A stretch of DNA of 51,703 nt from Bacteroidota bacterium (lineage in GTDB: Bacteria; Bacteroidota; Bacteroidia; B-17B0; Aurantibacillaceae): the NCBI GenBank assembly GCA_018267475.1, contig JAFDYI010000016.1, positions 1 through 51,703 on the forward strand. The letters run 5' to 3'. This document shows positions 692 through 2,938 of this stretch, in pieces. Positions within the stretch are counted from its first letter, which is position 1, and the number at the start of each line of letters is the position of its first letter. The notes under the pieces are model-generated. The model worked only from the letters and a program-made list of their open reading frames with translations. It ran no database searches and was not told the origin of the DNA. Made by a program: the position numbers and the translations under genes.

Positions 692-851
692 TGTGAAAGA
701 TAAAAATATAGACACCATTATTGTTTTTTACCGTGATATTATTTTTTTAAACCGCATAAAAATGCGTTCCAATAGATTGATGTTTTTGGTGATGGAATTG
801 CCACCTTTTAGTGGACATTTTTTTACTCACACTCATACATCCTGTTTTTTT
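692..851. other. Non-coding junction between core gene and AT-rich island
   Basis: No credible gene. It holds a short hairpin (CGCAT / ATGCG arms at 753-757 and 762-766) and, around 797-816, the sequence TGCCACCTTTTAGTGGACA with CCAC/GTGG arms, which looks like a transposon-end type inverted motif. On the minus strand it directly follows the abrupt end of the truncated ATP-grasp gene. Read in all three minus frames it does not continue that protein, so this is likely a recombination or deletion junction. Confidence 0.45.
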
Positions 852-1223
852 TTAAAAAACATCATTGGGTTTGTTAATTGATTTTTTAGATATAGAATTC
901 ACAAAGTGGAAATTTAGATTGACCGACTCTGATGATAATTGTCGTTCGATTTCATTTTTAAGTTTAATATCATTTAAAGCGAATTGTGTTTTTGTCATTT
1001 TAATAAACCCTCTTCGATACCAAATGGCTTTGAATTCGTTTAAATTATAATTTTTATTTTTAACTCTTATTTTTACATTGTGCAAGGTGTTGCTTATGGA
1101 AACGTTTAAGTATTCAACAAAATCATCTTCATTAATTCGTAAAATTTTTTTGTTATAAAATAAAAGCCAATTAATTACCTCATTAGTAGTAACGTCGCTT
1201 GAATTAGAGATTATCAAAATCAT
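852..1223 (-). CDS. Truncated ATP-grasp peptide maturase fragment (grasp-with-spasm, GwsG-like; probable pseudogene)
   Basis: The 123 residues match what I know of the N-terminal pre-ATP-grasp part of GwsG-type maturases: the 'MILIISNSSDVTTNEVINWL' start, a 'WYRRG' motif near residue 68, and a terminal 'SINKPNDVF' where family members continue into the ATP-grasp domain. Full-length members are about 300 residues or more; here the ATP-binding and catalytic domain is missing and the frame runs into a homopolymer and stops. The start lies 4 bases after the stop of the DUF6624-like fragment, so it was the last gene of a minus-strand operon headed by the precursor peptide at 2300-2497. Family name is from memory of motifs, not a search. 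As it stands it cannot be an active ligase. Confidence 0.6.
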   Translation of the reverse strand: MILIISNSSDVTTNEVINWLLFYNKKILRINEDDFVEYLNVSISNTLHNVKIRVKNKNYNLNEFKAIWYRRGFIKMTKTQFALNDIKLKNEIERQLSSESVNLNFHFVNSISKKSINKPNDVF

Positions 1224-1227
1224 ATTA

Positions 1228-1689
1228 TCATTGTATTTTATAGCGTTTTTTTCTTTCTGATAATTCTTCGTTATCCTTAACAGGAACTTTATCTAAAAAT
1301 CCATAATATTGGTAACCAAAATGCATATTTGAATATACATCATAAGCGTATAAAAAACTATAGCTTATTTTACCATCAAAATATGCTTTTTCCAAATATG
1401 GAAATATTAAGCCCCAAGCTTTTAAAAAATTTTCTTTAGTTTTTAAATTATGTAATAGTATTAGCTGAATTTTTTGATAAATATCTGTGGTATATTCGAA
1501 TCCATTAGGTAGCCCACCGTTTTCTTTACTCAAATCAACAATTTCTTCTAAATGCCTGAAATCTTCTTGAGCAATCATTGTTGAAAATAGCTTTGATTGC
1601 AAACAAGATGTATCTGTTGAGAACGCATCAAAAGATGAAAGTAATTGGTCTTTGTCATAAAGGTTATCAATAATTTTTATAGTCTCCAT
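1228..1689 (-). CDS. DUF6624-like protein, C-terminal half of a frameshifted gene
   Basis: 153 residues starting METIKIIDNLYDKDQ. The conserved-looking elements 'LPNGF', 'ILLHNLKTKENF', 'EKAYFDGKISYSFLYAYD' and 'GYQYYGFL...VPVKDNEEL' resemble DUF6624-type Bacteroidota proteins, which often sit near peptide-maturation genes. This piece overlaps the upstream fragment (1677-2144) by 13 bases in another frame. Adding one base to the A7 run (plus-strand T7 at 1700-1706) joins the two as '...YPIWLKKNISKMETIKIID...', so this was almost certainly one gene. The ATG here is an internal methionine of the original protein. Function unknown; translation from this internal start would lack a signal peptide. 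Confidence 0.6.
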   Translation of the reverse strand: METIKIIDNLYDKDQLLSSFDAFSTDTSCLQSKLFSTMIAQEDFRHLEEIVDLSKENGGLPNGFEYTTDIYQKIQLILLHNLKTKENFLKAWGLIFPYLEKAYFDGKISYSFLYAYDVYSNMHFGYQYYGFLDKVPVKDNEELSERKKRYKIQ

Positions 1690-2144
1690 TTTGCTAATAT
1701 TTTTTTAAGCCAGATTGGATAATAACTTTTAAAAGTTTTTTTATACCATTCACTTAATTCTCCCGAGGCCAGTATAGAATAAAAATTACAATTATTTGTA
1801 TTAACTTGTTGAATAGAAAAACCATTTTTTTCTATCAAAATTTTTATTTGTTCTTTTAAAAAAACATAATCTTTATTGTCAAATGAAAATCTTAAAAAAT
1901 ATATTTTTTTAATGGGTTCAACGACATATTTTGTATCTAAAGAAATAAATAAATCTTTTGCTTTTTTATAATTAGTTTTAGCAATATCAAAAATACTGTC
2001 GCATTTATTATATGTAGTATTCTGACCAAATAAAAAAAAAGATTTAAAAAAAAACAGATAAAGTATAATTTTTTTTATTGTCGAATACAGAGGTTGTCTC
2101 AATTCTGTTTGATTTTCTTGTACGTTGATTTTTAAATAATACAT
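1677..2144 (-). CDS. Secreted DUF6624-like protein, N-terminal half of a frameshifted gene
   Basis: 155 residues. A signal peptide-like stretch (KKIILYLFFFKSFFLFGQ, residues 24-41) is followed by a helical region ('CDSIFDIAKTNYKKAKDLFISLDTKYVVEPIKKIYFLRF') and ends out of frame after 'YYPIWLKK'. The remainder of the protein continues in the +1 frame at 1228-1689. The 22 residues before the signal peptide are atypical for an n-region. The codon before KKII is ATA, where an ATG start would be expected, so the native start may also have been lost by a point mutation. Lies downstream of the GG-leader peptide with a hairpin in between. Partner or accessory protein of the RiPP cassette by context only. 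Confidence 0.55.
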   Translation of the reverse strand: MYYLKINVQENQTELRQPLYSTIKKIILYLFFFKSFFLFGQNTTYNKCDSIFDIAKTNYKKAKDLFISLDTKYVVEPIKKIYFLRFSFDNKDYVFLKEQIKILIEKNGFSIQQVNTNNCNFYSILASGELSEWYKKTFKSYYPIWLKKILAKWRL

Positions 2145-2242: not shown

Positions 2243-2273
2243 AAGCGGGTATATTGTCGCTATATACCCACTT
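2243..2273 (-). promoter_or_regulatory. Perfect-stem hairpin between RiPP precursor and downstream genes
   Basis: Arms GGGTATAT (2247-2254) and ATATACCC (2262-2269) pair perfectly over a 7-base loop, and an outer AAG/CTT adds three pairs across one mismatch. It lies about 27 bases after the precursor stop codon on the minus strand. There is no U-run right after it on that strand, so an attenuator or RNA-stabilising hairpin that lets the peptide be made in excess over the maturation genes is more likely than a strong terminator. Confidence 0.5.
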
Positions 2274-2299: not shown

Positions 2300-2497
2300 T
2301 TAACCAGGGTATGGGCCACAATCCATAAGGGTATCTGTGCCTAAATCAGTACAATCGCGGACACCGCCCCTATTTGTTTCGTCGCAATCCCCTGTATCGC
2401 TAGAGTGAGGTACCCCCCCTTTTGTCTTAATCATTGAACTACTAAGGATTTCCTTTTCTTTGAAATTCTGAAATAATTTCGATTCGATTTTTTTCAT
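2300..2497 (-). CDS. GG-leader RiPP precursor peptide (grasp-with-spasm GwsA-like)
   Basis: 65 residues. The leader 'MKKIESKLFQNFKEKEI' followed by 'SSSMIKTKGG' is the typical Bacteroidota double-glycine leader of modified peptides. The core after GG (residues 29-65) has three cysteines (res. 38, 48, 60), many Asp and Thr residues ('GDCDETN', 'RDCTDLGTDT', 'MDCGPYPG') and few hydrophobics. Asp next to Thr suits ATP-grasp ester or amide crosslinking, by inference. The gene is intact although the maturase downstream is truncated and no SPASM-domain partner is seen. A TATTTTTG box lies about 110 bases upstream. The start is set by the conserved MKKI opening. Confidence 0.7.
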   Translation of the reverse strand: MKKIESKLFQNFKEKEILSSSMIKTKGGVPHSSDTGDCDETNRGGVRDCTDLGTDTLMDCGPYPG

Positions 2498-2757: not shown

Positions 2758-2938
2758 ATGATAGAGCACAGCAATATTCAATACGCCCAAAAGTTAAGAA
2801 GCCTAAGGCTTAGCCACAACCTAAAGCAAGAGCAAGCCGGCTTATGAAACCATGTAAGCGCAAAAAGAACAGATAGAGCTGCTAAAAAAGCAGCTGGAAA
2901 TGCAACAACATCATACAAAACCGGCTACAAAAAAGTAA
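2758..2938 (+). pseudogene. XRE-family HTH regulator remnant with internal deletion
   Basis: From ATG 2758 the frame reads MIEHSNIQYAQKLRSLRLSH then NLKQEQAGL and stops at 2845-2847. This is the start of an XRE/Cro helix-turn-helix domain (helix 1, then the 'KQEQAGL' entry into helix 2). In another frame 2858-2938 reads AQKEQIELLKKQLEMQQHH then TKPATKK and a stop, a typical coiled-coil C-terminal tail of such regulators. The recognition helix and the middle of the gene are missing. Both pieces were too short to be listed as genes, and together they mark a deleted regulator next to its likely operator at 2635-2674. Confidence 0.65.

Follow-up and report, generated by a model that had tools for sequence, protein, structure and literature searches.

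We conclude that a 65-codon open reading frame (ORF) in the window, i.e. the whole 51,703-nt stretch of DNA analysed here, very probably encodes the precursor of a grasp-with-spasm graspetide operon that no longer functions, the precursor gene itself having stayed open (Table 1). The window represents the entire contig C7 of a 2.76 Mb, 99%-complete genome; it begins inside the neighbouring T9SS gene, whose T9SS type B sorting domain is one of the signs that the gene families match a Bacteroidota genome.

Table 1. Features of the probably decayed operon and its surroundings in the window.
Feature	Position	Strand	Basis
Precursor peptide gene, 65 aa (predicted)	2300..2497	(-), reading 2497->2300	ORF list and profile of 12 relatives
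Leader, 28 aa, C-terminal KGG	2497-2414	(-)	ORF list
Core, 37 aa, three Cys	2413-2303	(-)	ORF list
12-bp RNA hairpin, directly after the precursor	2243..2273	(-)	MFE -19.6 kcal/mol, z -4.1
Exported DUF6624-like protein, N-terminal part, now a separate frame	1677..2144	(-)	tblastn with L056 residues 8-136, 33% identity
DUF6624-like protein, C-terminal part, other frame	1228..1689	(-)	tblastn with L056 residues 173-283, 43% identity
gwsG remnant, first ~120 of ~320 codons, pre-ATP-grasp domain only	852..1223	(-)	TIGR04192, E 3.4e-14
Dispersed short repeat GGAATTGCCACCTTTTAGTGGACATTTTT, beside the gwsG breakpoint	793..824	(+)	6 copies in the genome, ≤3 mismatches
Likely XRE-type regulator relic, internal deletion, divergent from the precursor	2758..2938	(+)	Conceptual translation; motif read by eye

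The encoded peptide consists of a leader starting with MKK (MKKIESKLFQNFKEKEILSSSMIKTKGG) and a core (VPHSSDTGDCDETNRGGVRDCTDLGTDTLMDCGPYPG), and the ORF, the 37 residues after the GG, the three Cys and all motifs quoted in the first-pass annotation are present on the minus strand. Its proposal that this is the GG-leader precursor of an ATP-grasp, i.e. graspetide, system is supported by the adjacent gwsG fragment and by a profile of 12 relatives. From 80 further ligase loci and a family-level search we gathered 73 precursors upstream of ligases, an initial alignment of 13 ligases having been too diverse for scanning. With the leave-one-out profile of 12 precursors, all of which adjoin intact maturases in other genomes and from which the window sequence was left out, the window precursor scored 28.1 bits, as compared to 8.7 bits for the best of 1000 shuffles, and ranked first among the 387 six-frame ORFs of at least 30 aa in the window, no other ORF coming near. 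As the 12 members were picked partly for their likeness to the window precursor, we also report the unselected set of all 73 precursors, which gave 24.4 bits (best shuffle 10.4 bits). The signal of a leader-only profile was weak (7.1 bits; best shuffle 5.8 bits), that of the full-length profile being decisive, and in a single-sequence phmmer search against the precursor set the top match was weak, being equalled by 1-2 of 300 shuffles, whereas the sum of the five best matches was clear (0 of 600 shuffles).

A single-sequence search revealed no homologue of the precursor in the 86 other genomes of the family, the family-level and order-level searches covering the identical 87 genomes. Pfam and NCBIfam yielded no match for the precursor or for the DUF6624-like pieces, so that their identity rests on the operon relatives. 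Likewise, the curated precursor families TIGR04149, TIGR04194 and PF14406 did not match the window precursor at E-values up to 1, and the tested precursors from four intact operons also fell below the cut-offs of these families. Judged from the sequence comparisons, the window ORF is a genuine graspetide precursor rather than a chance ORF. Its core contains 19% Asp, 13.5% Thr and 8% Cys, corresponding to the 90th, 63rd and 89th percentile among the 73 family cores, i.e. the content of these residues is typical to high for grasp-with-spasm systems and unexceptional. Cores rich in Asp, Thr and Cys are the norm among the roughly 70 collected precursors, in line with the high content of these residues described as normal for the branch 5 family (PMC8939145, Makarova et al. 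2022).

The standard order of grasp-with-spasm operons in Bacteroidetes is precursor, hairpin, exported DUF6624-like protein, GwsG, GwsS and C39 exporter. The family-level search yielded full ligases in a congener (G062) as well as in other genera. G062 encodes the complete set: a precursor with a GG leader, an exported protein of 306 aa, GwsG, the SPASM maturase GwsS and a C39-ABC exporter. The SPASM gene lies downstream in 62 of the 62 relatives with enough flanking sequence and the C39-ABC exporter in 32 of these 62, so the C39 peptidase/ABC exporter is frequent, but not universal, in these operons. In many intact operons the gap between precursor and gwsG spans 930-1160 bp and is occupied by one protein of ~300 aa, and in the window 1077 bp holding one protein of this type separate the end of the precursor from the start of gwsG, which is located downstream on the same strand. 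An exported DUF6624-type protein between precursor and ligase was also seen in the intact operons L046, L048, L049, L079 and others; it could serve as a partner protein or in immunity or maturation. In several genomes of the family (L022, L030, L031 and L036), tandem proteins of ~265 aa (MAAETQYTANTG...) are encoded just upstream of gwsG and the GG precursor is different or unrecognisable.

The window operon is broken at several points. The gwsG remnant matches only positions 1-119 of the 318 positions of TIGR04192 with 52.9 bits, the cut-off being 230 bits, and thus does not qualify as a full-length ligase; conserved columns beyond K127 are absent and the ATP-grasp catalytic domain is deleted, in agreement with the earlier statement, which calls the local maturase dead. 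The DUF6624-like gene has been broken into two frames, which join at an A7 run (T run at 1700-1706 of the plus strand), whereas its counterpart in the Flavobacteriales MAG locus L056 is a single frame of 286 aa. A comparison of the C-terminal part with DUF6624-bearing operon proteins by hhalign (Prob 94, E 1e-7) indicates that it is a divergent relative of these proteins. Profile searches of the 99%-complete genome detected no other TIGR04192 ligase, no match to the SPASM maturase GwsS (TIGR04193) at E-values up to 1, no Peptidase_C39 (PF03412) exporter and no second precursor, the window gene being the sole match to the precursor profile. The genome-wide search for further GG-leader precursors and maturases that the first-pass annotation had recommended was therefore negative; its views of the peptide and of the dead maturase hold, but processing by an enzyme encoded elsewhere in the genome is not borne out. 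Nor do the homologues lack maturases throughout, an observation it had named as speaking against its reading, since the precursors of the relatives adjoin intact ones. Decayed gwsG genes also occur elsewhere in the family, with many stops in L036 (G021) and as a C-terminal piece only in L037 (contig C47 of G073).

The surroundings of the operon show further traces of change. The sequence upstream of the precursor is likely the relic of a divergent XRE-type regulator, and in L049 and L050 an intact XRE gene is found at the matching position. The G+C content of gwsG and the DUF6624-like gene is 24-25%, compared to 40% in the rest of the window and ~30% in the operons of intact relatives, which suggests that they are of foreign origin. 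The GGAATTGCCACCTTTTAGTGGACATTTTT repeat has five further copies in the genome, which are intergenic, occur in both orientations and have the look of a hairpin followed by a T-run; no copy was found in six congeners, as was the case for a reversed control. The idea that the repeat is the end of an IS element was rejected as no transposase was recognised next to the copies, and a search for an ancestral or empty site via lspA in the congeners gave none because the neighbours differ there. The hairpin after the precursor has comparable counterparts in five of six relatives (z -2.7 to -6.3) and, as in these, is probably a leaky terminator or an mRNA stabiliser; its position would fit the usual leaky terminator that separates the precursor from the enzymes. 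The canonical Bacteroidetes promoter TTTG-N17-20-TANNTTTG has no copy at the operon and occurs in the window about as often as chance predicts.

By analogy with the family, the leader (MKK...KGG) would recruit GwsG in an intact operon, and GwsG would condense side chains of core Asp/Glu residues with those of Thr/Ser (or Lys), yielding lactone or lactam rings. Further modification, plausibly at Cys, would be the task of GwsS, the SPASM radical-SAM partner, which may introduce thioether or other bonds; the C39 peptidase-ABC exporter would cleave after the GG and export the product. Leader binding by the ATP-grasp enzyme, the joining of Asp/Glu with Thr/Ser/Lys, SPASM action at Cys and C39 cleavage after GG are all based on the family literature (PMC8939145; PMC13097080). 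The earlier suggestions that Asp and Thr are crosslinked by an ATP-grasp enzyme and that the Cys residues are substrates of a partner enzyme are thus supported as predictions. Here, gwsG appears to have lost everything past about codon 120, gwsS and any exporter seem to be gone as well, the DUF6624-like gene is apparently frameshifted and the regulator is an apparent relic. The window peptide would at most be made unmodified, all steps past translation being without a recognisable enzyme in the organism.

Decay is not free of counter-evidence, as the precursor is intact and the downstream hairpin is kept; decay may hence be recent, or the peptide may retain a use. In the latter case it might be modified in trans, the enzyme being supplied by neighbouring strains or encoded, undetected, elsewhere in this genome. 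We regard this as very improbable: although one SPASM-like radical-SAM protein (340 aa) is encoded in the genome, its match is below the cut-off (22.7 vs 27 bits) and its gene adjoins those for an acyltransferase and lipid/membrane proteins. We rejected a rescue by this protein, the only SPASM-like one, as it is judged unrelated from its gene neighbours. Moreover, no GwsG, GwsS or C39 exporter was found in the 99%-complete genome, and a gene of 65 codons can stay open by chance without selection. Equally slim is the chance that the living strain harbours an intact operon and that the assembly introduced the truncation and the frameshift. The assembly comprises 37 contigs, the sequence left of the window start is unseen, the frameshift sits at a homopolymer run, at which the sequence may be in error, and a short repeat with copies elsewhere in the genome adjoins the break. 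A misjoin at this repeat nevertheless fails as an explanation because the similarity to gwsG stops at ~865, some 40 bp short of the repeat; furthermore, the missing parts of gwsG and gwsS are nowhere else in the assembly and the adjacent regulator also looks damaged. Slightly less credible still is a purposeful retention of the precursor without maturases, the peptide being, for example, secreted unmodified or used by the maturases of neighbouring cells. Decay of the operon, our preferred reading, implies that the short precursor can outlast the enzymes of a graspetide cluster, and therefore genome-mining hits of a precursor alone should be checked for living maturases.

The locus is most likely an ordinary leftover, i.e. 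a decayed member of an already described kind of RiPP cluster. The branch 5 graspetides of Bacteroidetes are characterized by a GG motif, an MKKL leader, Thr/Ser plus Asp/Glu and Cys (PMC8939145, Makarova et al. 2022), and the window locus shares with these grasp-with-spasm systems (TIGR04192 GwsG and TIGR04193 SPASM) the MKK/GG leader, the Thr/Ser-Asp/Glu-Cys core, the gene order precursor, ~300-aa exported protein and gwsG, and a GwsG N-terminus matching TIGR04192, but its gwsG is truncated and gwsS and the exporter are absent. DUF6624 has been reported in graspetide groups 18, 20, 23 and 42 and SPASM in group 14 (Carter et al. 2026, PMC13097080); as in those groups, a DUF6624-type protein is encoded with a graspetide synthetase at the window locus, whereas the window form is divergent, belongs to a SPASM-type operon and is broken. 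On sequence grounds, the closest intact relatives of the window operon are in the Flavobacteriales MAG Jr-16oct17-234 (L056), which has the closest DUF6624-like protein and whose precursor resembles that of the window in its leader (SKLF...SSMIKGG) and in the DCTD motif of its core, but is followed by an intact GwsG, a SPASM maturase and a C39-ABC exporter.
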